NCBI GenBank assembly: GCA_021203465.1
Contig: JAJQBC010000092.1
Location: forward strand, 1-58,471
Source of the DNA: Lachnospiraceae bacterium
Lineage (GTDB): Bacteria; Bacillota; Clostridia; Lachnospirales; Lachnospiraceae
Reading direction: 5' to 3'
Length of the DNA: 58,471 nt
Positions 1,511-18,247 of this stretch are shown here, piece after piece; the first letter of the stretch is position 1; the number at the start of each line of letters is the position of its first letter. Under the pieces are notes generated by a model. That model was given only the letters and a program-made list of their open reading frames with translations. It searched no databases and was not told where the DNA came from. The position numbers and the translations under genes are program-made.

Positions 1511-1532
1511 ATGAAAAAGAAAGGTACTCTTT

Positions 1533-1736
1533 ATGTTGCAGATAAAAGATATCCATAAACAATATAAAACCGGTGACCTCATCCAGAAATCGCTGGACGG
1601 CGTCTCCCTCAGGAACATATTTCTTGATTTATCGGAGAGCGGACTGTTGATCGCATCCGTCGGAAAGAACGGCGGGGTGCATCTGGCCAGAGCGCCCAAA
1701 AAACATTACATTGTGGGACACCTATCAGACAGGTGA
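1533..1736 (+). pseudogene. N-terminal stub of a MacB/LolD-type ABC transporter ATPase
   Basis: The first ~27 codons (beginning MLQIKDIHKQYKTGD and reaching LDGVSL) match the usual N-terminus of antimicrobial-peptide or lipoprotein-type ABC ATPases (FtsE/MacB/LolD group). The expected Walker A region (GPSGSGKST) is missing, and the frame continues into unrelated sequence until TGA at 1734-1736. The gene is therefore truncated just before the P-loop and cannot work as an ATPase. No matching permease is present downstream. Confidence 0.4.
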
Positions 1737-1819
1737 AAAGTCCACCTGCAAGCGCAGTCATTAGGCAGAGTCGGATGAAATAGCGTGGTAAACGATTTAC
1801 CTTTCCGCAGCGATTGCAG

Positions 1820-1955
1820 AGAGGATAGGCGCTTTCCGACGCCTCCAGATAGATTTTACCAACTCCGCGGCGCTTCGCCTCCCGCAGGACAATCTCCCGT
1901 CAGCGCAGCAGCTTTTTCTTTACCTCAGAGAGCACAAACTCCTTTTCTCCCGGCG
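1820..1955 (-). pseudogene. Mosaic remnant of the GNAT and adenylation-ligase genes
   Basis: Three short blocks match the intact operon in the same order and orientation. Positions 1825-1882 resemble the 3' part of the GNAT gene (about 9393-9450), 1882-1908 resemble its 5' part (about 9723-9757), and 1911-1955 resemble the 3' end of the ligase gene (about 9936-9975). Everything between these blocks is missing. It reads as an internally deleted relic of a second operon copy; the rest of that copy lies at 4003-5200. It also supplies the last codons of the HxlR gene. Confidence 0.55.
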
Positions 1956-2302: not shown

Positions 2303-2319
2303 AGCTAACCTCCAGATAA

Positions 2320-2371: not shown

Positions 2372-2446
2372 ATATTCACCTTCAGGACAAGAAGGATACA
2401 GAGACTTTTATGCCTGAAAAAACAGAAATCACAGGAGGAGCCCATC

Positions 2447-3010: not shown

Positions 3011-3316
3011 GTATAAGTCAGAACAGACTCATCTGTCTGTCAATCCAGCCGACTTGCTTCGCTTCGTGGATCTGATCATTCGGATGACTTTCTCCAAACA
3101 GGCACGGAGGCTCTGGATAGAATACAACAAAATACAGCCCGTGGCACCGAATTAACCGACAGTCACGGGCTACATTCATTATCTTTGGCCACGTCAGTTT
3201 TCTTCTGTAAATCATTGAGGCTTTCGATACTGTGGCTCCCCTCAATATAGTCGGCCAACTGCTATATTTTATCTATATTCTTATCTTCTCTGGAAAATCT
3301 CATAGGCGCCACATCG
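3011..3316. other. Intergenic stretch with a weak small frame and an inverted repeat
   Basis: There is no convincing gene. A 75-codon minus-strand frame (3018-3245) exists without a good ribosome site or family resemblance. AGCCCGTG and CACGGGCT (about 3136-3172) form an 8-bp inverted repeat with a 20-base loop; it could be a weak terminator between the converging flavin reductase-like and nitroreductase genes. Confidence 0.3.
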
Positions 3317-3979
3317 TTATTTCCAGACAAAATTTTCCTTACCGGCACCCAATTCAAAATGATATTTGCTGATACCCAGATCTGCACCCGCGAAGGAAAT
3401 ATTCGCATAAGTCATGGACACCTGATTTTCCTGTCCCTTTATGCTGAAAGCCTGATGGTTCATAGCAGTCGGAGCAAGCAATGCTGCTTCCACACCGGCT
3501 TTAAACCAATCCGGCATGGCTCCGTCGTAAGACGACACCTCGGCTACTGATTTGGATTTATGTGGTACGCCCTGCTCCTTCCCATAACCAACGACAACAA
3601 CACCGATCACCTTATTCCCAGCATTGGCAAGTTTCTGCGCATTGGATTTGCTGTACATACCCCCGACCCACCATGTATTCAGGCCAAGCGTCTGCGCATA
3701 CAGCATGATATCTGTACTGCAGTATCCTAATTGCTCATCGATATCCGGTCGATCGGCTCCTTCCAGAAGAAAGTAGTTTTTGACTCCCTTTGTCATCAAC
3801 AACCTGAAAACCCCTGGTATTGCTTTTCCATCATCCGTTATCAATTTTATGTTGAGGTCATATTTCTCATTGTTCTGTGCCACCCTGGCATTCAGTTTCT
3901 CCACAATATCCTTTGGCAGCGGAGTATCCTCATATTTCCTGACTGTATGCCTCTGTTTCATTGCCTCCTGTAATGTCAC
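3317..3979 (-). CDS. Nitroreductase family protein
   Basis: A 220-residue FMN-dependent nitroreductase-fold enzyme. RHTVRKYEDTPLP near the N-terminus is the FMN-binding arginine motif. GYCSTDIMLYAQTLGLNTWW (mid-protein), VIGVVVVGYGKEQGVPHKSK and LLAPTAMNHQ complete the family pattern. The start is GTG at 3979, preceded by AGAGGAGG with good spacing; an internal ATG at residue 7 has its ribosome site too close. The 5' end sits directly against debris of the macrodomain and sirtuin genes, showing that this gene or its module was inserted into, or left inside, the collapsed operon copy. Confidence 0.85.
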   Translation of the reverse strand: MTLQEAMKQRHTVRKYEDTPLPKDIVEKLNARVAQNNEKYDLNIKLITDDGKAIPGVFRLLMTKGVKNYFLLEGADRPDIDEQLGYCSTDIMLYAQTLGLNTWWVGGMYSKSNAQKLANAGNKVIGVVVVGYGKEQGVPHKSKSVAEVSSYDGAMPDWFKAGVEAALLAPTAMNHQAFSIKGQENQVSMTYANISFAGADLGISKYHFELGAGKENFVWK

Positions 3980-4002
3980 TTCAAAACCTCCTCTACTCTT
4001 GA

Positions 4003-4050
4003 TCAGTTCCTGCAAAATTCTTTGTTTATTCCTGCTAAACTGTTTCCATT
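4003..4050 (-). pseudogene. Remnant of the macrodomain gene (two ends joined)
   Basis: Reading the minus strand, the stretch matches the first codons of the intact macrodomain gene (around 12402) and then jumps to its last codons (KEFCRN versus REFCRN in the intact protein, around 11340). About 1 kb of the gene is missing in this copy. It lies just 3' of the sirtuin remnant, in the same order as the intact operon. Confidence 0.5.
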
Positions 4051-4470
4051 TCGTCTTTCTTTCAGCTTCTGAAAGACCTCATCGGATCCTTCCCTGATAT
4101 TCAGATCCGCCTCGCGGTCAAAGCCAGTATGACCCGGGGTGATCTGGACGATCACAGCGTCCCTTCTCCGGTAATCCCAGTAGACGCCTCCATAGTTACC
4201 GCGCGTTCCGATGACAAGGATCAGGTCAGCTTTCGATATCCAGTTTCTGGCCTTTCTGACGTCCTCATCCCAGAGGCCGATATGGCTGTAAAGCGGCCAG
4301 AGCTGGATCGATCCTCCGCAGGACCTCGCACAGGGGAAGCTCCTTCTGTCTCCAGATCTCATAAGTATCATAGTAGCGGCCGCACTTTTCACAGCAGTTG
4401 ACCTGAAGACTGCCCTGGATCTCCGCGACGTTTTGGGAACCGGCGATCGTGTGCATACAGTCCACATTCA
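4051..4470 (-). pseudogene. 3' half of a duplicated sirtuin gene (Sir2-a copy)
   Basis: Closely similar to 12418-12835. It includes NVDCMHTIAGSQNVAEIQG, the C-x2-C zinc ribbon EKCGRYYDTYEIW and LILVIGTRGNYGGVYW. One extra base near 4322 shifts the frame inside the zinc region. The N-terminal Rossmann half is absent: the sequence jumps at about 4470 into the ABC ATPase signature region. The copy keeps the Gln in place of the catalytic His (EIQG), so the His-to-Gln state predates the duplication. It cannot encode a working sirtuin. Confidence 0.75.
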
Positions 4471-5200
4471 GCATGGGGCTGTTCTGGATCATCGCCCGGG
4501 CGATCGTCATCAGCTGCTTCTGCCCGCCGGAGATATTAGAGCCGCTCTACGAGATCCGGCTTTGCAGCCCTCCGTCCAGCTTCCGGACAAAATCTGTCGC
4601 CTGCGCGACATCCAGCGCCCCCCTCCTCATCGCCCTTCGTCTTTTTCTGTCCACTGTTTCCGAAACTGACGTTGCCCTCCACGGTATCAGCAAACAGCGT
4701 CGCCTTCTGCGGAATATAACCGATCTTTTTGCAAAGCGTCTCAAAGCTGTATGCGGAAACGTCCTTTCCGTCAAGCAAGATGCTTCCCGCCGTCACGTCG
4801 TAAAGCCTTGCAAGCAGGTCCACAAGCGTGGATTTCCCGGAACCGGTCGCACCGATAAAAGCGACTGTCTCGCCCTTCTTCGCGGAAAACGAGTATGCTT
4901 CAGGCAGTCCTCGGAGGCGTCCGGATCGCGGAACGACACGTCTTTAAATTCGACGCTCTCGCTCTCCTCCGACGCGGTTTCCGCGCCTTCCTGTACTGCG
5001 ATCTCCGCGTCAATCACCTCATTGATGCGGTTCGCGGACACCTGCGCGCGGATATCAAAAGAAAAATCCGCCGCGATCATGGCTGCAAAGTAGCCGACCA
5101 CCACGGTCAGAAGGGCGCTGCACAGGGCACAGACGAGCAGCAGGCACAAAAGCGCCAGCCACCGGTCCTTAGCCTTCATGTTCCGGAAAACATGAAGCAT
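4471..5200 (-). pseudogene. Collapsed hybrid of the two ABC exporter genes
   Basis: From ATG 5200 (behind AGGAGG) the sequence follows the second ABC exporter gene of the intact operon (17526-15730), but with large in-frame-scale deletions: 17462 joins 17335, and 17262 joins 16570. A one-base deletion near 4885 breaks the frame ahead of Walker A. At about 4525 it switches within the conserved GGQKQ coding region to the other ABC gene (ARAMIQNSPML), then jumps to the sirtuin relic. It carries remnants of both exporter subunits and cannot make either one. Confidence 0.8.
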
Positions 5201-5220
5201 AGAAAAACCTCCTGTTCTTG

Positions 5221-5344
5221 AGTGCTACGATTGTTGCTTGCTGTATATTATCACGATGACTTCCATTCATCAAGCAACAATTCTCAACATTTGTCGCATG
5301 ATGGACTTTTATCGCTTGTATTTCGGCGACAGGCGTTGTATAAT
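5221..5344. promoter_or_regulatory. TetR operator/promoter region A (divergent)
   Basis: This is homologous to the regulatory region at 17546-17671. CAACATTTGTCG (5285-5296) and CGACAGGCGTTG (5327-5338) are operator-like inverted repeats. The plus-strand promoter of the TetR gene is TTGTAT (5316-5321), a 17-base spacer containing the second repeat, and TATAAT (5339-5344). A minus-strand promoter for the dead exporter copy is also retained (TTGTTGCTTGATGAAT region, 5259-5279). Confidence 0.65.
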
Positions 5345-5382
5345 GCGGCTGTAAACGTGGGTACATTCGGAGGGAGATCATC

Positions 5383-5943
5383 ATGAAAAAACAGCCGAAA
5401 ATCACGGACGCGACAAGAGAAGCCTTTATCAGAGCCTTCTTTCAGCTGGCAAAGATCAAGAATATCAACCAGATTACCATCCGGGAGATCACGAACCTCG
5501 CCGGCTACAACCGCACGACCTTTTACCGCTATTTCGAGGATGTTTTCGCCCTGATGGAATACGCCGAGGATCAGTTCCTGCAGAGCACACATGCGGAAGT
5601 GGAGACGCAGCTTGGCTGGGATAAGATCGGCGAAAAGCAGTTTTTTCGGGTTCTCATCCGCTGTTTCCATGAAAACAAGGATCGCGTGAGCATCCTGCTG
5701 TCCGAGCAGAACCGATCCCATTTTTTAAGAAGATTAAAGGAAAATCTGACGAACAATATTTATATGTGCGATAACGATACGCCCCGGAAAAGCGTGGCGA
5801 GAGATATCTATTTTTATGGTATTTTCTACGCCATCTCCATCAATCTGCAAAGCAAGAATTCTCTGTCCGATGAGGATCTGCTGGAGCTCATCCAGAAGCT
5901 GTTCGAAAACTGGTACCGGCCGGAAATGCTGGAAAACACCTGA
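5383..5943 (+). CDS. TetR/AcrR-family regulator (intact paralogue)
   Basis: A 186-residue TetR-type repressor. The N-terminal helix-turn-helix is typical (INQITIREITNLAGYNRTTFYRYFEDVFALMEYAE, residues ~25-60). The C-terminal domain is helical and of unknown ligand specificity. The start at 5383 follows GGAGGGAG. It is a close paralogue of the TetR gene at 17735 over the whole length, and this copy is the complete one (…LIQKLFENWYRPEM…). It is divergent from the dead exporter copy, so its surviving targets are probably its own promoter and the matching operators at about 7.9 and 17.6 kb. Confidence 0.9.
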   Translation: MKKQPKITDATREAFIRAFFQLAKIKNINQITIREITNLAGYNRTTFYRYFEDVFALMEYAEDQFLQSTHAEVETQLGWDKIGEKQFFRVLIRCFHENKDRVSILLSEQNRSHFLRRLKENLTNNIYMCDNDTPRKSVARDIYFYGIFYAISINLQSKNSLSDEDLLELIQKLFENWYRPEMLENT

Positions 5944-5946: not shown

Positions 5947-7029
5947 TTATTTCGGATACTCCCGATACCGATTCGGGAACAGAAGCAAAGAGACAAAAAA
6001 CCTCTTATATCGCATATAAAGCCCGACGTCCGCCGCGCCCTTGGTGTTCGTGATGGAAGTCGCCAGCCTCACAAGCGGTATTCTGCGATCGTAGACCAGG
6101 TAGCGCGTCTTCCACACGTTCGGATCGAACTTGCTTTTAAAGCGATAAAGGTTCTTGAAGTCATAGCCAAAATCCATATTGTTGAAGATCTCATCCATCA
6201 GCTTTTCTGTCCGGCAGGTATCCGGTCTCGTGGTGTCGATCCCTGCGAGCGGGGCAATATTCAGGCTGACTTCTTTAAGACCCTCATCCCTCATCTTCAT
6301 GGCGGCAGAAATGATCGCGTGCTCCATCGCCCCCGTCGGCCCGTCCAACTTCCGGTACATCACATCGACGCAGTAGGCACTCCCCTGCCTGTACGGCAGG
6401 AAGGACAGTGCCGTCAGAATCTGCCCTTCCGCATCTCTTGTGACAAAGTACCGCCTGCCGTATGTCTTTTCAAACTGCAGACCGCCGATGGAGTAAGTGA
6501 GCTTCAACTTTTTGTCCGCAAACCACTGCTCCTCCAGTTCAAAGAGTTTCTTTTCCAAAGAAAGGTCGCGGGCAGTCTCCGGGCAGTACTCCTCCAGCGT
6601 GGTACCGGCCCGGTTCAGCTTCGCCACGTTTCTGCGCAGGGCACCCTTCTCCCTGCCGGACAGGGAATAGCTGTTCAGATCGAGGATCGCCTCCTCGCCA
6701 TACTGCAGCACACAAAAATTCCTCTCTCTCAACAGGTCTGCCACGTCGGCGCTGACCGAATTGAACACTGCCCGGTATCCTCTCTCCTGGCAAAAAGCAA
6801 GGTATTCATCAAGCAGACGCCCCATATCTTCTGCGTGACAGGCTGGGTTTCCCTGGCTCATGGAACGCCTCCCTGCCAGCGCATAGGGAACGACACCGCA
6901 GACCTCTGTTCCGAAAAAGTAACTGCTTTCCACATTCAGAGCCAGACACTGCTGGGAGTCATCGCCCAACGCGCCGATAATCTGCGCGGCCCGCTCCATA
7001 TCTTCTGATAAATTCTCCATACCGCTCAT
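5947..7029 (-). CDS. DUF2156 protein (MprF C-terminal-like aminoacyltransferase domain)
   Basis: About 360 residues of the DUF2156 family, the soluble GNAT-like catalytic domain of phosphatidylglycerol lysyltransferase MprF. Visible hallmarks are VFNSVSADVADLL, EEAILDLNSYSLSGREKGALRRNVAKLNR, GRRYFVTRDAEGQILTALSFLPY, GPTGAMEHAIISAAMKM, EVSLNIAPLAGI and LYRFKSKFDPNVW. There is no membrane flippase domain, so it is a soluble form. The start is uncertain: ATG 7029 is used here, while GTG 7048-7050 has a GA-rich sequence before it. It lies just downstream of the alpha/beta hydrolase and probably shares its transcript. It converges on the TetR gene with a 3-base gap. Confidence 0.8.
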   Translation of the reverse strand: MSGMENLSEDMERAAQIIGALGDDSQQCLALNVESSYFFGTEVCGVVPYALAGRRSMSQGNPACHAEDMGRLLDEYLAFCQERGYRAVFNSVSADVADLLRERNFCVLQYGEEAILDLNSYSLSGREKGALRRNVAKLNRAGTTLEEYCPETARDLSLEKKLFELEEQWFADKKLKLTYSIGGLQFEKTYGRRYFVTRDAEGQILTALSFLPYRQGSAYCVDVMYRKLDGPTGAMEHAIISAAMKMRDEGLKEVSLNIAPLAGIDTTRPDTCRTEKLMDEIFNNMDFGYDFKNLYRFKSKFDPNVWKTRYLVYDRRIPLVRLATSITNTKGAADVGLYMRYKRFFVSLLLFPNRYREYPK

Positions 7030-7078
7030 TTGCGCTCTGCCAGTCCTCACACCTCTCCTCTCTTCCTGAACGCTGCCC

Positions 7079-7813
7079 TCATTTAGAAACCGTCTCACGG
7101 ATCTGCTCCGCAAAAAAATCCAGAACCAGCCGCACACTCTGCTCATTCTGCTCCTGCCAGGAGATGGAGGCCTCCCCGTCGCGTCCGGACGCCGATTTAT
7201 ATGCCGCAAATCCCTGATGATTCGTTCCTTCCAGCACGATATTGGCAGAATTTTCCGGCAGATTCCTGTTATAGTTTTCCATGCGGTCATTGTTCATAAC
7301 GCCGTCGTTCTGCGCGGTAATCCGAATCGCGGAAATATCGAGCTCCGACAGATCCACAGAAGCATAGGTCGCCAGAAGCACTACACCAAGCAGCTTTTCC
7401 GGCTGCGCGGCGGCGATTCGGCTAACAGGCATTCCTCCGAGCGAATGGCCGATCAGAATCCATTTTTCGATCTGCGAGCTGAATTCGATGATCTCCAATC
7501 CATGCTTCGTCCCAAACGCGCTCAGATGAAAAAGCTGCTTCGGAACCACCACCGTGTATCCCTCCTCATACAGCAGCTTCGCCATATACGCATAGGCCCG
7601 CTCGTCCGCCTTCGCACCCGCGAAGATGATAAAGCCGACGTCACTGTCCCCGTGGAACCAGTAATCACCGTCGATCAGCTTCATCTCCTCCGCGATTTCC
7701 TGTGCCTCCGGAAAGGCCTGATTGTAATAGAGCAGGATGCCGATCATCGCAATGGCAAGTATTCCGATTATACAAAGCAGCACTACCATGCGCGTTCTCC
7801 TTTTTCTCTCCAT
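7079..7813 (-). CDS. Membrane-anchored alpha/beta hydrolase
   Basis: A 244-residue protein. A basic N-terminus (MERKRRTR) is followed by one hydrophobic helix (about residues 8-28), then an extracytoplasmic alpha/beta hydrolase domain. The nucleophile elbow GHSLGG is near residue 121, a late Asp lies in the RITAQNDGV region, and the His is in EGTNHQGF. It resembles the alpha/beta hydrolase family 5 'dienelactone-like' proteins common in Firmicutes. The start at 7813 has an AAGGA upstream. It is divergent from a rhomboid gene across a TetR-type operator region and co-directional with the DUF2156 gene. Confidence 0.8.
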   Translation of the reverse strand: MERKRRTRMVVLLCIIGILAIAMIGILLYYNQAFPEAQEIAEEMKLIDGDYWFHGDSDVGFIIFAGAKADERAYAYMAKLLYEEGYTVVVPKQLFHLSAFGTKHGLEIIEFSSQIEKWILIGHSLGGMPVSRIAAAQPEKLLGVVLLATYASVDLSELDISAIRITAQNDGVMNNDRMENYNRNLPENSANIVLEGTNHQGFAAYKSASGRDGEASISWQEQNEQSVRLVLDFFAEQIRETVSK

Positions 7814-7878
7814 GCAGTATCCTTCTGTCCGGATTTGCGTCTTCCCGTACGCAGGAATCCACACCGATTGTAATTTTG

Positions 7879-8635: not shown

Positions 8636-9322
8636 TTACTGCTGCAAGGCCCACCGCAGCCCCGCGGCCGTCCTTCCGGTGGAGTTGTGATAGTGATTTC
8701 CCGCGTTCAGCCGAAACGTAGTCTGAATCCCCTTTTCCGAATAATACTGCTCCAGAAAGCGCGTATTGTCCTCCACAGGGGCAAGATACGGATTTTTGGT
8801 GTGGCTCTCCTTATCTCCCAGGGAGAAATACATGACCTTCACCGCCTCTGAGATCTGATTCTGCTGCACAAAGGAAAGGAAATCCGGATACCACAGCGAA
8901 CCGGAGGCGGAGACAATGCGGGAAAAGCAGTCGGTTTTATAAGCCGCGTAAACGGCGAACAGCCCTGCAAGGGAGTAACCGGACAGCACACAGTATTCCG
9001 GCGGAGCCGGAAGCGCCTCCCTGATCTCCGGCAACAGTTCTATAAGCAGCTGATCTAAATAAGCATCCGCACCGCCGGAGCACGGCGTGTCGCCCTTCGC
9101 GATCGGCGGAATCGGCCAGGGCGTCATCTCGTCGTCCCAGTCCACACCATTAATCACCGCAAGGGAAAATTCCGGACAGCCAAGCTTCTGACAGTCCTGC
9201 CAGAGCTTTTTCCCTTCGCCCATCACGGCGTGATAGATGACCAGCGGTGCGGCCTGCGGCGCACGGTAAAGCTGTATTGTCTTGCCGCCGTAACACAGTT
9301 TGACTGCTTTTTCTTCTCTCAC
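8636..9322 (-). CDS. Esterase of the Fes/esterase-D-like alpha/beta hydrolase family
   Basis: A 228-residue predicted serine esterase with nucleophile motif GYSLAG near residue 116. The late Asp region is YFSLGDKES and the His is in AGNHYHNS. It has no signal peptide. The start is GTG at 9322, behind a GGGGTGAG stretch and only 4 bases after the stop of the GNAT gene, which marks it as the last gene of the eight-gene operon. This family includes siderophore and carbohydrate esterases. Here, beside an adenylation ligase and an acetyltransferase, a role in releasing or trimming an ester- or amide-linked small molecule is an inference. Confidence 0.8.
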   Translation of the reverse strand: MREEKAVKLCYGGKTIQLYRAPQAAPLVIYHAVMGEGKKLWQDCQKLGCPEFSLAVINGVDWDDEMTPWPIPPIAKGDTPCSGGADAYLDQLLIELLPEIREALPAPPEYCVLSGYSLAGLFAVYAAYKTDCFSRIVSASGSLWYPDFLSFVQQNQISEAVKVMYFSLGDKESHTKNPYLAPVEDNTRFLEQYYSEKGIQTTFRLNAGNHYHNSTGRTAAGLRWALQQ

Positions 9323-9326
9323 GTTC

Positions 9327-9800
9327 TCACCCCGGTTCTTTCATATATTTCAGATACCCGTCCATCTCGCAGAATCCCAGCTCCCTGTAGAGAGGATACG
9401 CGCTTTCGGACGCTTCCAGATAGATTTTACCGGCTCCGCGCTCCTTCGCCTCCTGCAGCAGCCACTCGACAATCGCCTTTCCGATGCCGCGCCGACGCAT
9501 GGCAGGAATCGTGTAAATATTCATGAAATACGCGCACCTGCCGCTCGGATTATCCGGCGAGGGCATCTCCTGATAGAGACAGACACCACCGCAGCCGACC
9601 GTCTTTCCCTCCGTCTGGGCGAAGCAGGCGATGTGCTCTCTTCTCTCCAGAGCGCTGAGATAATACTGTCGGTTCGCGGCGATGAGGTCATCCATATTTT
9701 CTTCCATCGGAATGGAAAATACTTCCCGCAGGACAATCTCCCGCCAGCGCAGCAGTTCCTCTATGTCCGGACTGTCCGCGCTCTTTATCGTAATCTCCAT
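9327..9800 (-). CDS. GNAT-family N-acetyltransferase
   Basis: A 157-residue acetyl-CoA-dependent acyltransferase. The acetyl-CoA pyrophosphate loop motif is MRRRGIGKAI (residues ~100-109); GCGGVCLYQ, AYFMNIYTIP and AYPLYRELGFCEMDGYLKY complete the GNAT fold. The start at 9800 comes 1 base after the ligase stop codon, so it is translated together with the ligase. The acceptor is unknown. Pieces of a second copy survive at 1820-1910. Confidence 0.88.
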   Translation of the reverse strand: MEITIKSADSPDIEELLRWREIVLREVFSIPMEENMDDLIAANRQYYLSALERREHIACFAQTEGKTVGCGGVCLYQEMPSPDNPSGRCAYFMNIYTIPAMRRRGIGKAIVEWLLQEAKERGAGKIYLEASESAYPLYRELGFCEMDGYLKYMKEPG

Positions 9801-9801
9801 T

Positions 9802-11271
9802 TTAGCAGTCTCCTTCCTTCAATACAAGCGGCAGGCTTTTCAGATCCGGCTTTCCGTTCGGCGTCAGGGGAATGTGATCCATCAGCACAAAAAATTCCGG
9901 TATCATAAAGGAAGTCAGATAGCGCGAAAGCTTCTTCTTTACCTCAGAAAGGACAAACTTTTCGTCCTCCGGGACAACATAGGCCGTCAGATAAGAAAGA
10001 CCCTGCTCATCCGTGCACGGGCAGACCACGGCGGTCTGCACCTCCTCACAGTCGCAGAGCACGTTTTCCACTTCCTCCGGCTCCACCCGTTTCCCCAGTA
10101 TCATCACCTGGGAATCCCTGCGGTGCAGGAAGGCCAGGTTGCCATCCGGCAGGAGCCGTCCCAGATCGCCGCTCCGATAGAGAGGCTTCCCATCCGCCCC
10201 GGTCACAAACATTTCATTCTTACTCTTGTCGAGATAGCCGCCGGAGACGCCGTCTCCCGCGATACAGATTTCCCCGACAGAACCGGCAGGAACGGGATTC
10301 ATCTTCTCATCCAGAAGCTCCATCCTTGTGCCGGGCACTGCCTTCCCGACCGGATAGGTGCCGTCGTCCAGGGCTTTCTGTCCGTTGCAGCAGAAATAAC
10401 TGCAGCACACCGTCGTCTCCGACGGCCCGTAGGTATTGTAGACTGTGACCTGTGGCAGAAGATGATTCACATAGCTCTCCCGCAGGACGTCGCCGCCGCT
10501 GATCAGGAGCCGCAGACTGGAAGGGATTTCCTCCAGCTCATTCATTTCCATCAGAAGATAAGGGAATCCGCTGATGATCGTCACCTGCTTTTCCTGGACA
10601 TACTCCATCAGAGAAACGATATCCGCCCTCGCGCGCCCGTCCGGGATGGCAAGCGCCGCGCCGGAGAGAAGTGTGGTAAAGACCTCCTCGACAAAGATAT
10701 CAAAAGAACATACTGAATACTGGAGCATGATGTCTCCGGCTGCCGGATGAAATTCCTGCCGAAACGCGCGCACGTAATGGCATACGTTCGCGTTTGTCAT
10801 GCAGACACCTTTGGGCACACCGGTGGAGCCGGAAGTGTAAAGGACGTATGCGAGGGACTCTTGTCTCGCCGCACAGTCCTCTGTCGGCGTGGATTCTCCT
10901 TCTTTTATGTCTTCCAGAAACAACAGGGGAAAGCCTTCCAGCTTCTCCTGATATTTCCGCTGCGTGATGAGGAAGCCCACGCCGCTCTCCTTCATCATGA
11001 AGCGAATACGCTCCTCCGGAAAATCCGGCTCCGCGGGAACATAGGCCGCCCCCGTTTTTAATACGGCCAAGATGGACGCGATCTGATCCGCCCCATGATC
11101 CGTCACAATCCCGATGAAATCTGCACGTGACGGGAAATTTCCCTCAATGGTACAAATCCGGCGGTCGAGCTGCTCATAGGTCAGTGACAGTTCTTTTTCT
11201 ACAATGGCTGTACGCGCGGGGGATTGTTTTACGACTTTTTTTAATTGCTCATAAATGATGGAATTACTCAT
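9802..11271 (-). CDS. Stand-alone amino-acid adenylation (NRPS A-domain-type) ligase
   Basis: A 489-residue AMP-forming enzyme with all core A-domain motifs: LTYEQLD, LYTSGSTGVPKGV (~147), YGPSETTV (~283), GEICIAGDGVSGGY, YRSGDLG, RRDSQVMILGKRVEPEEVE and PNGKPDLKSL with the catalytic Lys. The SFDIFVEEVF segment has the Asp that holds the amino group of amino-acid substrates, so an amino acid is more likely than a fatty acid. A Glu three residues later and V-C after YGPSETT hint at a basic residue such as lysine, but this is weak. No carrier, condensation or thioesterase domain follows. The start at 11271 is 27 bases after the macrodomain gene; the stop is 1 base from GNAT. Confidence 0.87.
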   Translation of the reverse strand: MSNSIIYEQLKKVVKQSPARTAIVEKELSLTYEQLDRRICTIEGNFPSRADFIGIVTDHGADQIASILAVLKTGAAYVPAEPDFPEERIRFMMKESGVGFLITQRKYQEKLEGFPLLFLEDIKEGESTPTEDCAARQESLAYVLYTSGSTGVPKGVCMTNANVCHYVRAFRQEFHPAAGDIMLQYSVCSFDIFVEEVFTTLLSGAALAIPDGRARADIVSLMEYVQEKQVTIISGFPYLLMEMNELEEIPSSLRLLISGGDVLRESYVNHLLPQVTVYNTYGPSETTVCCSYFCCNGQKALDDGTYPVGKAVPGTRMELLDEKMNPVPAGSVGEICIAGDGVSGGYLDKSKNEMFVTGADGKPLYRSGDLGRLLPDGNLAFLHRRDSQVMILGKRVEPEEVENVLCDCEEVQTAVVCPCTDEQGLSYLTAYVVPEDEKFVLSEVKKKLSRYLTSFMIPEFFVLMDHIPLTPNGKPDLKSLPLVLKEGDC

Positions 11272-11298
11272 ATTGTCGACTTTCTGTTATGCCTTTTT

Positions 11299-12402
11299 TC
11301 AACTGTGCTGCTTCTCTGGAAATCTGGAAAAATTCCTGCAAAACTCCCTGTAGTTATAATCTTTCTCCGGGCGGCAGAGCACTGCAAAATCAATGGAGGC
11401 AAACGGCAGGCCGCCTTCCTGTATTGCCCGGTAAAACAGATCAGAGACAAGCGCTGCGTCATTGCCAAACACCCCGCAGCCAAAGGCTCCCAGAATCAGA
11501 TGGCGATAGTGCTGCGACGCGGCGACCAGCAGCATCCCCTGAACGCGCTTATAAAGCATCTCTTCGTATTCCTGCTGTGACATTCCTTCCAGACCCATGC
11601 GGATCATCGGCGCCGCACAACTCATGACAGAGATCGAAAATGGCTCAGAGAGTATTTCCGCGGAGGCATCCTTCAGCACCTCCACGCAGGGAGATAGCAT
11701 CACGCCGTCCGAACCCATGCGTGTCTTTCTTGCATTATTATAGTCATAATATTTCTTCGCCTCCCCGCTTTCCAGCGACAGCAGAAGAGACGTCCTGCGG
11801 CAGAGATCCTCCTCCTGCGCGCTGGCTCCGTCCCTCGTGCGGCCGCCCGGGCGCGTGGCGCTCGCCAGATTCAAGACAAGGATACAAGACTCAGGCTCTC
11901 CGTTTTCTTTTAATTCCTGATATCTTCTCTGCGCGAGGACAAGGGAGTCTATATTCTCACAGCTGAACGTACAGATACTGCTCTGTAGCTGTTTTTCATT
12001 GTCCTTACCGAAAGTATCCTGTTTGAAGTGTTCTGTCTGAGATAAAGCAGTATCGTTATCTCCAGTTAAAAAGTCAGATAAAGCAGAGACTGTGTTACTT
12101 TCTGGCTCAGTCCGCAGCGAATCGATATCCTCCGGCAGAAATACCTGGATTTCCCGCATCTGCTCTGGTGAAAAGCGCAGATTTACCTCCCGACCGTCTT
12201 TTTCATAGCTGCCTTTTTCCAGAATATCCAGCGTGTCCCCCAGTATCTCCACATTCCTTTTCCTGCGCATTTCCTTTTGCCGCTCTCTTTCCTGAATTTC
12301 TTCTTCGGAGAGCCCCTTATATTCCGCGGCCTGCACCTGCGCCGCCAGCTTCTGTAACTGTTCTTCCTCCGTCAACTCCCGTTTGGTTTCCTGCTCAGCC
12401 AT
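11299..12402 (-). CDS. TIGR02452-type PARG-like macrodomain protein
   Basis: A 367-residue protein. Residues 1-45 are charged and probably coiled-coil; residues ~46-360 are the bacterial poly(ADP-ribose) glycohydrolase-like macrodomain (NVEILGDTLDILEKGSY at the family start). The signature near residue 184 reads RPGGRTRDGASAQEEDLCR: the QEE catalytic loop is intact, but the usual third Gly of the GGG loop is Arg. ILGAFGCGVFGND is the second ADP-ribose-binding loop. The family removes ADP-ribose from proteins or nucleic acid. The ATG overlaps the stop of the sirtuin gene by 8 bases, suggesting coupled synthesis of writer and eraser. Confidence 0.85.
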   Translation of the reverse strand: MAEQETKRELTEEEQLQKLAAQVQAAEYKGLSEEEIQERERQKEMRRKRNVEILGDTLDILEKGSYEKDGREVNLRFSPEQMREIQVFLPEDIDSLRTEPESNTVSALSDFLTGDNDTALSQTEHFKQDTFGKDNEKQLQSSICTFSCENIDSLVLAQRRYQELKENGEPESCILVLNLASATRPGGRTRDGASAQEEDLCRRTSLLLSLESGEAKKYYDYNNARKTRMGSDGVMLSPCVEVLKDASAEILSEPFSISVMSCAAPMIRMGLEGMSQQEYEEMLYKRVQGMLLVAASQHYRHLILGAFGCGVFGNDAALVSDLFYRAIQEGGLPFASIDFAVLCRPEKDYNYREFCRNFSRFPEKQHS

Positions 12403-13105
12403 TTCCGCTCCTCACTTCCTTCAGCTTCTGAAAGACTTCATCAGACCCTTCCCGGATATTCAGATCCGCCTCGCGGTCAAAGCCTGTATGACCCGGGTTG
12501 ATCTGAACAATCACGGCGTCCCTTCTCCGATAACCCCAGTAGACGCCTCCATAGTTTCCGTGCGTCCCGATGACAAGAATCAGATCCGCTTTCGAGATCC
12601 AGTTTCTGGCTTTTCTGACATCCTCATCCCAGAGGCCGATATGGCTGTAAAGCGGCCAGGGCTGGATCTCGCCTCCGCAGGACTCGCATCGGGGCAGCTC
12701 CTTCTGTCTCCAGATCTCATACGTATCATAGTGGCGGCCGCACTTTTCACAGCAGTTGACCTGAAGGCTTCCCTGAATCTCCGCTACATTTCGGGAACCG
12801 GCAATCGTGTGCATGCAATCTACATTGGTCGTGATAATCCCGATGAGTTTTCCTTCTTTTTCCAGATCTGCCAGAGCATAATGCGCAAAGCTCGGTTCAT
12901 AGGAAAACATGGTCTCCAGATAAGTAGGCAGAAAAGAGCCGCCCCCAGAACCGCGGCGCGCGAAGCGCATCTGTCCATAGGTCACCCCTCCACCGGCAAC
13001 CGAAATCCCCGCGCCGGTCGTGGCGACGATATTTTCGCTCTGGTCTATATAATCGGCCAGTTTCTGTATCTGATCTGTGCTCTGATCTCCCTTCCAGAAT
13101 CCCAT
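12395..13105 (-). CDS. Divergent sirtuin, class-M-like (Sir2-a)
   Basis: A 236-residue sirtuin. It has ATTGAGISVAGGG (NAD loop, ~30), GIITTNVDCMHTIAGS (~90-105), a four-Cys zinc ribbon (CEKCG and CESCG) and DLILVIGTHGN. The catalytic His of the normal HG motif is Gln (EIQG, ~108), and the PDFR stretch after GAG is missing. In SirTM enzymes, which ADP-ribosylate proteins rather than deacylate them, the same His is Gln, so mono-ADP-ribosyltransferase activity is the better guess. It is followed by an overlapping PARG-like macrodomain gene and preceded by a second sirtuin. Confidence 0.85.
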   Translation of the reverse strand: MGFWKGDQSTDQIQKLADYIDQSENIVATTGAGISVAGGGVTYGQMRFARRGSGGGSFLPTYLETMFSYEPSFAHYALADLEKEGKLIGIITTNVDCMHTIAGSRNVAEIQGSLQVNCCEKCGRHYDTYEIWRQKELPRCESCGGEIQPWPLYSHIGLWDEDVRKARNWISKADLILVIGTHGNYGGVYWGYRRRDAVIVQINPGHTGFDREADLNIREGSDEVFQKLKEVRSGNG

Positions 13106-13143
13106 AAGCGATCTCTCCTCTCTTATTGCAGGGTTGCAAACTA

Positions 13144-13863
13144 CTACAGGATCGCAGCCAGCACATCCGCCGCGTCCGCCCGGATATTCAGATCCGCAAT
13201 CCGGTCAAACTGCGTCCCGGATGGGTTGATCTGCACCAGCTTTGTCCCTGACTGCATACGGCTTAAGTATTCCTCGCTACGGAATCCGGTGGTACCGATG
13301 ACAAGCACCAGATCTGCCCCGGAGATCATATCGGCGGCTTTTCGCATGCTCTCCGCAGAGACAGCCGCAGTCTCCTTGAAATCTCCGCAGAAGCCTGTTG
13401 GCATCAGCGGCGCTCCGCATTTCTCACAGCGCGGCGCATGCCCCTGATTCCACACCTGATAATCATAGCAGCGCGTACCACAGTCAATACAGACGTTATC
13501 GCGGAAACTTCCCTGAAATTCCACCACATTCTGCGATCCGGCAATGGTATGCAGGCAGTCCAGGTTCTGTGTGACGATGCCATAGAGCTTCCCATGATTT
13601 TCCAGCTCTGCGAGCTGCTTATGGACAGGACTCGGCCCCTTGACAAAAGTCACATCCAGGAAAGCGTTTTTCATTACCTTATAAAATTCCTCTGGATTTT
13701 TTCGGACATACGAAGCAGAAAAAATCCGCCCTGCATTCAGCCTGCCGACGCTCTGCTTCAGCCTGCTCACGCCGTAGAGGTAAGAAATCCCTGCGCCGGT
13801 GACGGCGACAGTCTTCCGGCTCGCATCCATATATTCTTTTAACTGACTGTATTCTTTCTTCAT
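13144..13863 (-). CDS. Divergent sirtuin, class-M-like (Sir2-b)
   Basis: A 239-residue sirtuin, clearly related to but distinct from the next gene. It shows VAVTGAGISYLYG (~20-32), GIVTQNLDCLHTIAGSQN (~95-112), a zinc ribbon with CIDCG and CEKCG, and DLVLVIGTTGF. The catalytic His is replaced by Gln (VEFQGS, ~116), as in its neighbour. ATG 13863 follows AAGAGGT and lies 17 bases after the ABC subunit gene. Two different sirtuins with the same substitution suggest a heterodimer or two targets. Deacylase activity would be unusual without the His. Confidence 0.85.
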   Translation of the reverse strand: MKKEYSQLKEYMDASRKTVAVTGAGISYLYGVSRLKQSVGRLNAGRIFSASYVRKNPEEFYKVMKNAFLDVTFVKGPSPVHKQLAELENHGKLYGIVTQNLDCLHTIAGSQNVVEFQGSFRDNVCIDCGTRCYDYQVWNQGHAPRCEKCGAPLMPTGFCGDFKETAAVSAESMRKAADMISGADLVLVIGTTGFRSEEYLSRMQSGTKLVQINPSGTQFDRIADLNIRADAADVLAAIL

Positions 13864-13880
13864 TTTTACCTCTTTTCGCT

Positions 13881-15716
13881 TCAGGATGCCTGTTCAAACT
13901 GGCTGTTGTAGAGTTCGGCGTAGAAGCCGTTCTGCCGCAGCAGTTCCTCGTGATTTCCCTGTTCCACAATATCCCCGTTCCGCATGACCAGGATGATGTC
14001 TGCATTCTTGATCGTAGAGAGCCGGTGCGCGATGACGAAGCTCGTGCGCTTATCCGTCAACTTATCCATCGCCTGCTGCGTCAGCATTTCCGTCCGTGTG
14101 TCCACGCTGGAAGTCGCCTCGTCAAGGATCAGCATGGGACTGTTCTGGATCATCGCCCGGGCGATCGTCATCAGCTGCTTCTGCCCGGCAGAGATGGACG
14201 TGTTGTCCCTCAGGATTGAGTCATATCCGTTCGGCAGCGCCTGGATGAACTTGTGGATGCCGCAGGCTTCACAGGCCTCGATCATCTGTCCTTCCGTGAC
14301 GCCCTTTGTATTATAGAGAAGGTTTTCACGAACCGTTCCCTCAAAAAGCCAGGTATCCTGCAGCACCATGCCGAACTGGCTGTGCACATTACTCCGCGGG
14401 ATATTCTCCGTCGGAACCCCATCGATCAGGATGCTTCCGCCCGTCGGCTCGAAGAAGCGCATCAGCAGGTTGACCATCGTGGTCTTGCCCGCGCCGGTCG
14501 GTCCGACGATCGCCACCTTCTGTCCCGGCTTCACCTTGACGCTGAAATCGTGGATAATCTCCTTTTCCGGCGCATTCGGGTAGGCAAATTTCACATGGCG
14601 GAACTCCACCTCGCCGCGCACCTTATCAATGCGCTCCTTCTTTGCGGATTCATCCTCCATCTCCTCCTCCGCAAGGAACTCGAAGACCCGCTCGGAGGCC
14701 GCCGCACAGGACTGCACCTGCGTCATTGCCTGCGAGATCTGACGCAGCGGCGATTCAAACAGGCGCGTGTAGATCAGAAAGGCCGTGATCACACCGAAGG
14801 TGATTCTCCCATTGATAATCTGCGAAGCGCCCACCACGCAGACCGCCACATAGCCCAGATTTCCGATGAAGGCCATCAGCGGCTGTATCAGGCCGGACAG
14901 AAACTGGGAGCGGAAGTTTGCGTTCTTCACCGCCCGGTTGTAGGCGGAAAACTGATCCCGTACCTCATCCTCCGCGTTCAGGATACGGATCACATCGTGG
15001 CCGTTGTACATTTCCTCGATATAGCCGTTCAGCACGCCGAGGCTTTCCTGCCTGGCCGTGAAATATTTCTGCGAGCGGCTCATGATCAGCACCATCAGGA
15101 CAAGGCCGATGAGCGTCGCGACCACGGTCGTTGTTGCCAGCACCCAGTCGGTGTAATACATCATGATCAGACAGCCAATGAACTGCGCGACCGCCGTAAC
15201 GAGGTTCGACAGGCTGTTCGACATGGCCTGCCCGATCATGTCCACGTCGTTGGTCATACGCGAGAGCACATCGCCTGCGGCATTTCCGGAGAAATACTTG
15301 AGCGGCAGGCGGTTGATCTTGGTGCTGATGTCCCCGCGCAGCCATTTGGCTGTCCGCTGCGTCACGGTCTGCATGATAAAGTGCTGTGTGAAATTGCATA
15401 AAGCACTTAAAAGATAAATACCGACCAGCAGCATTGCCACGCTACGGATTCCGGCCATGTCGATAACGCCGGAGAGTCCGTCGTAAATATAATCCGTCAG
15501 GCGGCTGATCTGGTTCGGCCCGATGATCGTAAAGACCGCGCCGACCGCAGCCAGTATGAGCGCAAAGGCAATAATCCCCGCCTGGCCTCTGACATAGGAG
15601 AGCAGGCTGAGCAAGGCTCCTTTCATGTCCTTCGCTTTTCCTCCGCCCATGCCGCCCATCGGCCCGCGTCCCATGGGTCCCCGTCTCATCGGGGCTCCGC
15701 TTCTTGATTCTGGCAT
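13881..15716 (-). CDS. ABC exporter subunit (canonical Walker B)
   Basis: A 611-residue half-transporter: a Gly/Met/Arg-rich N-terminus (PMRRGPMGRGPMGGMGGG), six transmembrane helices (about residues 40-320) and a nucleotide-binding domain. Walker A GPTGAGKTT is near 407, the signature is ISAGQKQ (degenerate from LSGGQ), and Walker B MLILDEAT near 532 has the catalytic Glu. It pairs with the gene immediately upstream as a heterodimeric exporter of the LmrCD/TM287-288 type. The start at 15716 follows GGAGGT. These exporters move drugs, peptides or lipids out of the cell; the cargo here may be the product of the downstream enzymes. Confidence 0.9.
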   Translation of the reverse strand: MPESRSGAPMRRGPMGRGPMGGMGGGKAKDMKGALLSLLSYVRGQAGIIAFALILAAVGAVFTIIGPNQISRLTDYIYDGLSGVIDMAGIRSVAMLLVGIYLLSALCNFTQHFIMQTVTQRTAKWLRGDISTKINRLPLKYFSGNAAGDVLSRMTNDVDMIGQAMSNSLSNLVTAVAQFIGCLIMMYYTDWVLATTTVVATLIGLVLMVLIMSRSQKYFTARQESLGVLNGYIEEMYNGHDVIRILNAEDEVRDQFSAYNRAVKNANFRSQFLSGLIQPLMAFIGNLGYVAVCVVGASQIINGRITFGVITAFLIYTRLFESPLRQISQAMTQVQSCAAASERVFEFLAEEEMEDESAKKERIDKVRGEVEFRHVKFAYPNAPEKEIIHDFSVKVKPGQKVAIVGPTGAGKTTMVNLLMRFFEPTGGSILIDGVPTENIPRSNVHSQFGMVLQDTWLFEGTVRENLLYNTKGVTEGQMIEACEACGIHKFIQALPNGYDSILRDNTSISAGQKQLMTIARAMIQNSPMLILDEATSSVDTRTEMLTQQAMDKLTDKRTSFVIAHRLSTIKNADIILVMRNGDIVEQGNHEELLRQNGFYAELYNSQFEQAS

Positions 15717-15729
15717 ACTATGCACCTCC

Positions 15730-17526
15730 TTACGCGTTCGCCGCAAGCTCCTCCGCGGAGAGCTGCGACAAAGCGATCTGCTGATAAACAGCACAATTTT
15801 TCATCAGTTCCTCATGCGTGCCGATCCCGGCAACCGCGCCATTATCCAGTACCACGATCCGGTCCGCATTCCGGATGGTTCCGATCCGCTGCGCGACGAT
15901 CAGGCAGGTCGTCCCCTTGAGATCGGTTTTGATCCGCTCCCGCAATGTCCGGTCCGTCTTATAGTCCAGCGCCGAGAAGGAATCGTCAAAGATCAAAATC
16001 TCCGGCTTTCTGGCGATAGCCCTCGCGATCGAGAGGCGCTGCTTCTGGCCGCCCGACACATTGGAGCCACTCTGGGAAATGTGTCCCTTAAGCCCTCCAT
16101 CCATCGCATGGACGAAGTCGGAAGCCTGGGCGATGTCCAGCGCATTCTCCACATCGGCCTGCGTCTTTTTCTGTCCGCTCTTGCCAAAGCTAACATTTCC
16201 CTCCACCGTATCGGCGAACAGAGTCGCCTTCTGCGGGATATAGCCGATCTTATTGTAAAGCGTCTCAAAACTGTAGATCCGGACGTCTTTTCCGTCCAGC
16301 AGAACGGTGCCCGACGTGACGTCGTAGAGTCTCGCGGCGAGTCCGGCCAGCGTCGTTTTTCCGGAGCCTGTCGCGCCGATAAATGCGACGGTCTCTCCCT
16401 TCTTTGCCGTAAACGAGATGTGTTTCAGGCAGTCCTCGGAAGCGTCGGGATAGTGGAACGACACATCCCGGAATTCAATACTCCCGCTCTCCTCCGATAC
16501 GGTTTCCGCACCCTCCTTCACCGCAATATCCGCGTCAATCACTTCATTGATACGGCTGGCGGACACCTGCGCACGGGGCAGCAGCATGAAGATCATCAGC
16601 AGCATCACGAAGGACATAATCACATACAGGGCATAAGAGCTGAAGGAGACAACCTCGCCGAGCATCAACGAGCGGGCGGAAACGGACGCTGCGATCGCCT
16701 CTGCCGTACCACCCAGCGGGATCTCAATCGCGTTGATCAGCCTGGCTCCCACAAAGTAAATGCCGACGCTCACACAGCTCTGGACAAACATCATAATCGG
16801 AGAAAGGAAAGCCATCCCGCGTCCGGTAAAGAGCTGCGTCCGCATCAGATTGTTATTCGCTGTCTCGAACTTGTCCTCCTGGTACTGCTCCGCGTTGAAC
16901 GCGCGCACCACCCGGATGCCGTTCAGGTTTTCGCCTGTGATCCGGTTCACATCGTCGATCTGCCGCTGCACGATGCGGAACCTCGGGATCATGATGGCCA
17001 GCAGGATAACCATCGCACTCACAATGATGACCACCGCGGCCGCGACGACTGCGGACAGCTGCCAGCTTTTCCCGACAATCTTGATGATCGCCCAGATCGC
17101 CATAATGGGAGCCCGCAGCATCATCTGCAGTCCCATGGCGATGATCAGCTGGATCTGCGTGATATCGTTCGTAGTACGGGTGATGAGACTGGCGGTAGAG
17201 AACTTCTTGATCTCCCCGCTGCCCATCGCCGCGACCTTGTTGAACACCTTCGCACGGACGTCAAAGGAAAAGTCCGACGCGATCATGGCAGCAAAGTAGC
17301 CGACTACCACCGTCAGGAGGGCGCTGCACAGGGCGCAGCCGAGCATCTTCCCGCCCGCCGCGTAGTACTGCGACAGCTCCGTGACCTCGCTGCTGATCAG
17401 CACCGTAATTTCCGCCGTGTAGTCCGGCAGGCGCAGATCAAAATATACCTGACCGCAGACGAGTAACAGGCACAGAAGCGCCAGCCACCGGTCTTTGGTC
17501 TTCATGTTTCGAAAAATATGAATCAT
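15730..17526 (-). CDS. ABC exporter subunit (degenerate Walker B)
   Basis: A 598-residue half-transporter, first gene of the operon. Six membrane helices occupy residues ~15-330. In the ATPase domain, Walker A is GATGSGKTT (~388) and the signature VSGGQKQ is good, but Walker B is ILIFDDSFS (~513), with Asp where the catalytic Glu should be. With its partner it gives one consensus and one degenerate ATP site, the pattern of heterodimeric exporters. The start at 17526 follows AAGGAGGT (17533-17540). Operator palindromes begin 20 bases upstream, so the TetR protein probably represses the whole operon. A collapsed copy lies at 4471-5200. Confidence 0.9.
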   Translation of the reverse strand: MIHIFRNMKTKDRWLALLCLLLVCGQVYFDLRLPDYTAEITVLISSEVTELSQYYAAGGKMLGCALCSALLTVVVGYFAAMIASDFSFDVRAKVFNKVAAMGSGEIKKFSTASLITRTTNDITQIQLIIAMGLQMMLRAPIMAIWAIIKIVGKSWQLSAVVAAAVVIIVSAMVILLAIMIPRFRIVQRQIDDVNRITGENLNGIRVVRAFNAEQYQEDKFETANNNLMRTQLFTGRGMAFLSPIMMFVQSCVSVGIYFVGARLINAIEIPLGGTAEAIAASVSARSLMLGEVVSFSSYALYVIMSFVMLLMIFMLLPRAQVSASRINEVIDADIAVKEGAETVSEESGSIEFRDVSFHYPDASEDCLKHISFTAKKGETVAFIGATGSGKTTLAGLAARLYDVTSGTVLLDGKDVRIYSFETLYNKIGYIPQKATLFADTVEGNVSFGKSGQKKTQADVENALDIAQASDFVHAMDGGLKGHISQSGSNVSGGQKQRLSIARAIARKPEILIFDDSFSALDYKTDRTLRERIKTDLKGTTCLIVAQRIGTIRNADRIVVLDNGAVAGIGTHEELMKNCAVYQQIALSQLSAEELAANA

Positions 17527-17545: not shown

Positions 17546-17671
17546 TACAACATTTGTTGTATTGCAGGGTATGTTATCACTACCATCTGGATTTATCAAG
17601 CAACAATTTCCAACATTTGTTGTATTTTTTGTGTTTGAACGCTTGTTTTTTTGCAACACGAGTTGTATAAT
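17546..17671. promoter_or_regulatory. TetR operator/promoter region C (operon/TetR)
   Basis: Three inverted repeats occur: TACAACATTTGTTGTA (17546-17561), CAACATTTGTTG (17611-17622) and CAACACGAGTTG (17654-17665). The plus-strand TetR promoter is TTGTTT (17643-17648), 17 bases, TATAAT (17666-17671), with the third repeat inside the spacer. The minus-strand operon promoter lies between repeats 1 and 2 (TTGCTTGATAA, about 17594-17604 as -35 region). This is the clearest version of the shared operator. Confidence 0.75.
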
Positions 17672-17734
17672 GCACGCGTAAATATACAGCAAATCTTTCC
17701 ATTCCATTTTTGCGGGGGAATAAGGAGGCAACTC

Positions 17735-18247
17735 ATGAAAAAACAATCAAAAGTCACAGATGCGACAAGAGAATCTCTTGTGAATGCTTTCTTTCAGCTG
17801 GCCAAGGGGAAAAACATTGATCGAATTACCATCCGAGAAATCACGGATCTTGCCGGATACGAACGGACAACCTTTTACCGGTATTTCGTAGACGTCTTCG
17901 CTTTGATTGAATATGCCGAGAATCAGCTTTTGCAAAGCGCCCGGGAAGCGATAGAGTCACAACAGAGTGAAAGCACATTCGGCGAAAAGCAGTTTTTCCA
18001 AATTATCATTCAGTGTTTTCACGAAAATGCAGATCGTGTGTCCGTCCTGCTTTCCGAACGAAATCGCTCCCATTTTTTGAGGAGAATCAAAGAAAATGTG
18101 ACAAACAACCTCTATATACAGAATAACGACAGTCCCAGAAAAATGGTGGTGAGGGATATCTATTTTTATGGTATTTTCCATGCCATATCGGTCAACCTGC
18201 AGAACAAGGACGCACTCCCCGATGAGGACCTGCTGGACATTATTTAG
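17735..18247 (+). CDS. TetR/AcrR-family regulator, shortened by an amber codon
   Basis: A 170-residue TetR repressor, close paralogue of the gene at 5383. The DNA-binding helix-turn-helix (IDRITIREITDLAGYERTTFYRYF) is nearly identical, so the two proteins probably bind the same palindromes. The start at 17735 follows AAGGAGG. At 18245-18247 a TAG replaces the CAG Gln codon of the paralogue. The frame beyond it (KLFENWYWPEM…) stays open and conserved to TGA at 18293-18295. The last helix is therefore lost unless the stop is read through. It may still function, or its role may have passed to the intact paralogue. Confidence 0.85.
   Translation: MKKQSKVTDATRESLVNAFFQLAKGKNIDRITIREITDLAGYERTTFYRYFVDVFALIEYAENQLLQSAREAIESQQSESTFGEKQFFQIIIQCFHENADRVSVLLSERNRSHFLRRIKENVTNNLYIQNNDSPRKMVVRDIYFYGIFHAISVNLQNKDALPDEDLLDII

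Follow-up and report, generated by a model that had tools for sequence, protein, structure and literature searches.

A stretch of 58,471 nucleotides from a Lachnospiraceae bacterium (GenBank assembly GCA_021203465.1, contig JAJQBC010000092.1, positions 1 to 58,471; hereafter the window) carries two sirtuins in which the catalytic His-Gly (HG) pair is replaced by Gln-Gly (QG), directly followed by a macrodomain of the PARG type. Judged from sequence, this module is most likely a second, convergent pairing of QG sirtuins with a macrodomain, the known one being that of class M sirtuins (SirTMs) with Zn-Macro macrodomains. We put the probability at about 50% that the module would be a convergent system of reversible ADP-ribosylation tied to flavin redox enzymes. 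In the window, the sirtuins and the macrodomain lie within a run of eight minus-strand open reading frames (ORFs) at positions 8636-17526, which are listed below from upstream to downstream.

15730..17526, minus strand: ABC exporter half 1 (PF00664 and PF00005; start inferred, mechanical ORF to 17586)
13881..15713, minus strand: ABC exporter half 2 (PF00664 and PF00005; start inferred, mechanical ORF to 15794)
13144..13863, minus strand: SIRB, QG sirtuin (PF02146 match; EFQGS)
12395..13105, minus strand: SIRA, QG sirtuin (PF02146, E 1.5e-20; EIQGS for ELHGS)
11299..12402, minus strand: MACRO, microbial PARG-type macrodomain (PF10021/TIGR02452; Pfam E 2.5e-25, TIGR02452 160.4 bits)
9802..11271, minus strand: ADEN, stand-alone amino-acid adenylation domain (TIGR01733, 337 bits, cut-off 317.4)
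9327..9800, minus strand: GNAT acetyltransferase (PF00583; Pfam E 8.5e-17)
8636..9322, minus strand: EST, putative esterase (PF00756; Pfam E 1.1e-8)

Gaps in the ORF listing are 38 bases or fewer, MACRO overlaps SIRA by 8 bases, and Pfam and NCBIfam profiles bear out the families of all eight genes. The sequence-only reading, which had described eight tightly packed genes with one overlap, is thus correct on layout. Ratios of nonsynonymous to synonymous substitution (dN/dS) against near relatives are 0.04-0.22 across the eight genes where computable, with many dS values above 1 and no value for three GNAT pairs.

To place the module among its relatives, we drew on a scan for SIRA relatives in one genome per species across 84,980 species. 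The scan found 107, and the best 80 are the loci analyzed here, from 74 metagenome-assembled genomes (MAGs) as counted by record prefix; it relies on exact short peptides and would miss distant relatives elsewhere. The two sirtuins of the window score 74.4 and 84.5 bits against PF02146 (cut-off 24). In an alignment of the sirtuin-like frames of loci L040-L119, unfiltered for QG, Gln occupies the catalytic column in 180 of the 182 frames that reach it, the other two being Glu in L113 and Tyr in L048, a distant sirtuin of 30% identity. The catalytic Asn is present in 181 of 183 frames (one has Thr and one does not reach the position). An earlier pattern search, covering loci from L035 onward, had returned 160 Gln, 2 His (both CobB), 1 Ser and 1 Glu, with 25 uncaught. 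The GAG-S and N-x-D motifs and the four zinc cysteines are invariant in two sirtuin alignments whose rows were preselected for QG. CobB-type sirtuins of the window's family, including that of the window's own genome, are HG, and the IPDFR cofactor loop was seen in 27 of 29 HG sirtuin frames from this genome and others of the family, the pattern having missed two.

The overall architecture of the QG sirtuins is that of ordinary sirtuins. AlphaFold2 models of SIRB (predicted local distance difference test score, pLDDT, 89) and SIRA (pLDDT 78) have a fold like Sir2Tm and Sir2Af, which are also the top matches in Foldseek and VIA; no SirTM structure is among the matches listed, which proves nothing. 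This fold and the CobB-profile scores given below would suit ordinary or weak deacylases, the macrodomain clearing only O-acyl-ADP-ribose or free ADP-ribose adducts. We consider this improbable, as the catalytic His is replaced in all 182 frames while the Asn is kept, and the same change in SirTMs goes with undetected deacylation. QG SirTMs ADP-ribosylate with deacylation undetected, and QG is the hallmark of class M (PMC4518038).

The sequence-only reading had called the two sirtuins class-M-like, a description that holds for the QG substitution itself and fails for group membership. All 203 QG rows scored 103-148 bits with a CobB profile (built from 28 members) versus 3-34 bits with a class M profile (built from 18), with which the class M rows score 442-535 bits; the ranges given for each group are those of the rows from which its profile was built, and the 203 rows include duplicate contigs and are not independent. 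Rows for the alignments, trees and profile scoring were chosen by a motif filter. The class M rows come from 18 SirTM-like frames found in 17 of 20 stretches around places matched by the Zn-Macro model NF003163. Among 200 genomes of the window's family, 83 pass the cut-off of this model, against 0 of 14 control genomes, and the window's own genome has two such places. A tree of the 18 class M rows with the CobB rows thinned from 26 to 13 sets class M apart as one branch with support 100. Long branches meet in this tree and the CobB branch has a support of only 67, so the exclusion rests on the profile scores rather than on branching order. Neither the class M loop (Y-G-RF) nor the zinc-module insert was found in the QG sirtuin rows inspected. 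We reject membership of SIRA and SIRB in class M on the profile scores, the separate tree branch and the absent motifs. The profile separation and the missing motifs also indicate that the QG change appears to have arisen separately in the two groups. Contig C104 of the window's genome (L150) carries two class M SirTM-like frames and one Zn-Macro place, and both kinds of QG sirtuin therefore seem to coexist in this genome.

MACRO belongs to PF10021/TIGR02452 and not to the Zn-Macro subclass of class M systems. It reaches 90 bits with PF10021 (cut-off 23.5), its TIGR02452 score stands against a cut-off of 50, and it can be aligned with the solved bacterial PARG 5zdf, the QEE glutamates included. 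Among 63 MACRO homologs, QEE is kept in all and the GAFGCG loop, by alignment, in 62. Two more TIGR02452-like genes (43-46% identity) lie elsewhere in the window's genome, with a partial match on a third contig. The PARG family cleaves ribose-ribose O-glycosidic bonds, which opens a more elaborate possibility, one we regard as a long shot: one QG sirtuin might prime a target and a second extend the ADP-ribose, a sirtuin-built oligo-ADP-ribosylation. This would explain why two to three paralogs stand beside a PARG-type hydrolase and not a Zn-Macro, and if true it would amount to a bacterial form of poly- or oligo-ADP-ribosylation that needs no PARP and is linked to flavin redox enzymes.

The linkage of sirtuins and macrodomain is the most regular feature of the 80 loci. 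Genes in the loci were called as greedy ORFs from the earliest start, grouped into Louvain clusters and labeled by hand, and their overlaps are possibly overstated. SIRB is directly followed by SIRA 65 times, at least two sirtuins are present in 70 loci (two to five), and a sirtuin lies directly before the macrodomain in 61, with a median gap of about -14 to -15 bases on these earliest-start calls. The conserved core is SIRB-SIRA-(SIRC)-macrodomain, and the full eight-gene order of the window recurs in none of the 80 loci. The sequence-only reading had named as refuting evidence a failure of the eight genes to stay together in other genomes; by this measure the operon as a whole is refuted and its core is not, and a PARG-like macrodomain does form one tight conserved unit with the QG sirtuin pair.

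Flavin redox genes recur around this core. A nitroreductase or flavodoxin gene is found somewhere in 55 of the 80 loci, and 74 loci show which gene directly precedes the first sirtuin: nr2 in 22, a flavodoxin in 14 and NTR12 in 9, with Pfam identities of these neighbors taken from representatives. An Rrf2 regulator is present in 34 loci and is often divergent. Outside this set, two genomes each have a single QG sirtuin by a PF14512 nitroreductase. G529 represents a different genus within the window's family, and G851, in which a MarR gene separates sirtuin and nitroreductase, a different family within the class. This recurrence makes the pairing of a nitroreductase with a QG sirtuin the most widely conserved link found. 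The two minimal loci are at L193:2455-3815 and L194:9464-11267. Close SIRB relatives occur in 10 of 392 genomes of the order and 4 of 391 of the class, two overlapping samples, and close relatives of the G529 sirtuin in 1 of 398 genomes of the phylum, the window's own, in a sample that overlaps the other two. The window itself has one nitroreductase, outside the eight-gene run and next to what is left of a second module copy:

3317..3979, minus strand: NTR, PF14512 nitroreductase, intact-looking, 56% and 54% identical to the G529 and G851 nitroreductases

The claim that no flavin oxidoreductase is present accordingly applies to the eight-gene run alone, and does not extend to the window, to the 55 loci or to the G529 and G851 pairs. 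That a GcvH-like carrier and a lipoate ligase are missing from the run is confirmed by the Pfam and NCBIfam profiles; neither was seen in the commoner neighbor clusters, which were read and partly profile-scanned. Flavoproteins of the OYE (old yellow enzyme) and LLM (luciferase-like monooxygenase) types also accompany class M SirTMs (PMC4518038, PMC11490716). Among the papers listed in literature searches, whose scope excluded subscription papers and preprints, we found no report of this pairing of QG sirtuins with a PARG-type (TIGR02452) macrodomain. Five loci (L072, L076, L077, L078 and L114) have an upstream cassette of HXXEE membrane proteins, flavodoxin-ferredoxin-like proteins and proteins like short-chain dehydrogenases/reductases (SDR); four of them also contain a TetR-like gene.

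The sequence-only reading had gone further and proposed that the adenylation domain, acetyltransferase, esterase and exporter make and export a small aminoacyl product, and that ADP-ribosylation controls this process or gives self-protection against it. In its favor, a single apparent promoter region precedes the eight closely packed window genes, ADEN-like genes (E 1e-85) were seen in 1 of 146 genomes of the order, the window's own, and 13 of the 80 loci have exporter homologs close to the module, about 78-96% identical, one being a short piece (L071). The loci argue against a fixed unit: L119 is the one locus of 80 with an ABC gene immediately before a sirtuin, ADEN is present in 24, and the full order is absent. 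At E 1e-150, exporter homologs were found in 8 genomes among 60 from the window's family, the window's own included; in the other seven they are 50-66% identical, and the sirtuin matches listed for those genomes fall only in the CobB range, those of the three genomes checked being HG. In L041, 90-91% identity extends over the ABC pair and SIRA, the ABC match ends together with the second ABC gene, and opposite-strand genes, one of them Rrf2, separate the sirtuin from the ABC pair. This break suggests that the exporter-sirtuin junction of the window is a local fusion under the exporter promoter. The exporter as part of the unit is thus not borne out, control of aminoacyl export rests on that local fusion, and we judge this explanation very improbable. 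Reversible ADP-ribosylation would remain the natural reading of a sirtuin pair with a macrodomain, and it is the tie to aminoacyl export that falls away.

The region ahead of the exporter is consistent with TetR-type control of this promoter. Its features are as follows.

17546..17626: promoter region carrying a 15-base palindrome twice, probably as TetR operators
17651..18247, plus strand: divergent TetR-like regulator (PF00440, E 2.3e-4, below cut-off)

One copy of the palindrome is at 17547, and the second, at 17610, has one mismatch. With up to two mismatches there are 3 matches, one of them the first site on the other strand, versus 0.02 expected. A promoter-like site at 17599-17571 lies between the palindromes, upstream of the first ABC gene; the region has 11 such sites versus 7.6 expected, and a promoter-like site alone is therefore no evidence. 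The TetR-like gene is 70% identical, over 91%, to a second one at 5383-5943, and its frame stops earlier than that intact-looking paralog. The 344-residue protein encoded at 18551-19585 matches no Pfam family at E 0.01. The window's sirtuins lack the usual Rrf2/nitroreductase front, so the module, now behind a TetR-type exporter promoter, is probably induced together with efflux.

The adenylation, acetyltransferase and esterase genes appear in part of the loci as a block of their own. GNAT directly follows ADEN in 21 loci, EST directly follows GNAT in 19, and SIRB through EST is contiguous in 14. ADEN has the A10 lysine, and the five core-motif patterns are present in 21 of 22 homologs and four of the five in the remaining one. 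The ten residues of its binding pocket are identical in all 22 aligned homologs. They read D-I-E-S-I-G-T-V-C-K at positions that we placed by motif and by hand and take to be the specificity code. The code presumably resembles that of lysine-activating domains, a likeness used as a lead rather than a test. The trio is an accessory to the core and would serve to activate an amino acid, perhaps a basic one such as lysine. ADEN shares its core motifs and A10 lysine with stand-alone nonribosomal peptide synthetase (NRPS) A-domains and DltA, and differs from them in that no carrier protein was seen in the module and in its linkage to sirtuins.

Remnants of further module genes lie in the left 5.9 kb of the window, with similarity to SIRA, SIRC, both ABC genes, GNAT, Rrf2 and a YkgJ-like gene:

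1527..1896: pieces resembling genes that neighbor the module elsewhere, for an ABC ATPase, Rrf2, a YkgJ-like protein and GNAT (sequence similarity)
4042..4468, minus strand: remnant of another SIRA-like gene (two pieces, 86-94% identity)
4460..5260, minus strand: remains of a second ABC exporter pair (sequence similarity)
5383..5943, plus strand: TetR-like regulator beside the decayed copy, intact-looking (PF00440, E 3.6e-4, below cut-off)

The remains at 1527-5943 suggest further copies of the module and its rapid duplication and loss. Between them and the eight-gene run, positions 5947-7290 encode an LPG_synthase_C protein (PF09924) and 7085-7816 an alpha/beta hydrolase. In L044, L069 and L097, homologs of these genes immediately precede the sirtuins.

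An alternative is a stress or conflict system, a mobile resistance cassette in which sirtuins and macrodomain counter ADP-ribosylating or electrophilic attack from competitors or diet. The loci come from records named Lachnospiraceae, Oscillospiraceae, Ruminococcus, Erysipelotrichaceae and others, and five of the 74 MAGs have two or three apiece. The decayed second copy in the window and the Rrf2, nitroreductase and TetR/efflux settings point the same way. Bacterial PARGs appear to have been transferred horizontally many times and are able to protect against an ADP-ribosylating toxin (PMC11833690). Against this, PADLOC assigned none of seven module proteins (ABC genes left out) to a family, two scans found no relative in viral contigs, and protection has no need of two to five sirtuins; we hold the idea to be unlikely. 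A known anti-phage defense system is rejected for want of any PADLOC model match among the seven proteins. A tblastn search with the G529 sirtuin hit 77 plasmid and 40 phage records, all of them at less than 60% identity, and the two phage records that were read are ordinary HG sirtuins with IPDFR. With these matches all below 60% and no viral-contig relative, we reject a phage or plasmid origin. So far, the module is seen almost only in a few metagenome genome sets, one of them from koala: three of the 80 loci (L042, L078 and L106) come from Zagget MAGs, and the other 77 from JAJP/JAJQ/JAJB records. Zagget is a koala (PMC5697889). L042 and L078 share blocks of 1.8-7.9 kb at 93-97% identity with L041, L076 and L079. 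A link to Eucalyptus chemistry is conjecture.

Compared with the class M SirTM and Zn-Macro systems, such as those of Streptococcus pyogenes and the extended operon of Staphylococcus aureus (PMC4518038, PMC11490716), the module shares the HG-to-QG change, a sirtuin beside a macrodomain, flavin oxidoreductases nearby and, in part of the loci, an adenylate-forming ligase. It differs in its distant sirtuin sequence (3-34 bits) with neither class M loop nor zinc-module insert, and in its PARG-type TIGR02452 macrodomain where class M has Zn-Macro. It also differs in having two to five sirtuins in 70 of 80 loci, and in an A-domain that replaces the lipoate ligase, GcvH-L and LplA not being seen. From CobB and Sir2Tm sirtuins, which it resembles in overall fold, zinc module and nearer profile, it is set apart by QG, the loss of IPDFR and its gene context. 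The macrodomain shares the fold family, QEE and the GAFGCG loop with bacterial PARGs (PF10021/TIGR02452; 5zda-5zdg, 3sig), from which its coupling to sirtuins and the replaced third glycine of the GGG motif distinguish it.

The proposed course of events follows from these conserved features. SIRA and SIRB would be non-deacylating, with the NAD-binding GAG-S and N-x-D motifs and the zinc cysteines kept and the general-base His changed to Gln, so that an acceptor, and not deacylation, probably receives the ADP-ribose of NAD+. MACRO, by its family, would strip this mark. PARG enzymes cut O-glycosidic ADP-ribose links, and their bacterial roles are largely obscure (PMC11833690). The recurrent nitroreductase or flavodoxin and Rrf2 setting suggests that such a switch may act or report on flavin redox enzymes under electrophile or oxidative stress.

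Several observations weigh against a reversible, redox-tied ADP-ribosylation system. The QG sirtuins have lost the IPDFR cofactor loop and the class M loop is not in its place, which makes NAD+ turnover itself uncertain. This loss, together with the low confidence of the SIRA model at residues 41-60, the cofactor-loop region, would be expected of sirtuins that do not turn over NAD+ and act as NAD+/ADP-ribose sensors or scaffolds. We think this quite improbable, given the near-strict conservation of the Asn and Gln, which sensing alone does not obviously need. The published PARG motif GGG-X(6-8)-QEE (PMC6397177) is matched only in part, with QEE in all 63 macrodomain homologs but the third glycine in 1 of 63 and replaced in 62. 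No macrodomain or A-domain was seen in 13 kb around the G529 and G851 minimal pairs, where ORFs were read by eye, so reversal would not be essential to every version. In the window, the eight-gene run has no nitroreductase, the nearest one found lying about 4.7 kb downstream of it, and nr2 is matched only weakly in the genome, at 26% identity at best. No carrier domain was found in ADEN, nor was a carrier protein or an obvious target gene seen in the module. The linkage counts are lower bounds, because the available sequence stops shortly past the block in 19 of the 80 loci and shortly ahead of it in 6, and the activities of SIRA, SIRB and MACRO are predictions.

If confirmed, a convergent system of QG sirtuins and PARG-type macrodomains would mean that the HG-to-QG change, a macrodomain eraser and flavin redox enzymes came together twice, in different sirtuin groups and with different erasers. 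It would make testable whether QG alone turns a deacylase into an ADP-ribosyltransferase, and it would offer a possible physiological partner for the poorly understood PARG-type macrodomains of bacteria. For the organisms concerned, it would represent a redox-linked ADP-ribosylation switch across several named Bacillota families, found in part in an animal that eats chemically defended leaves.

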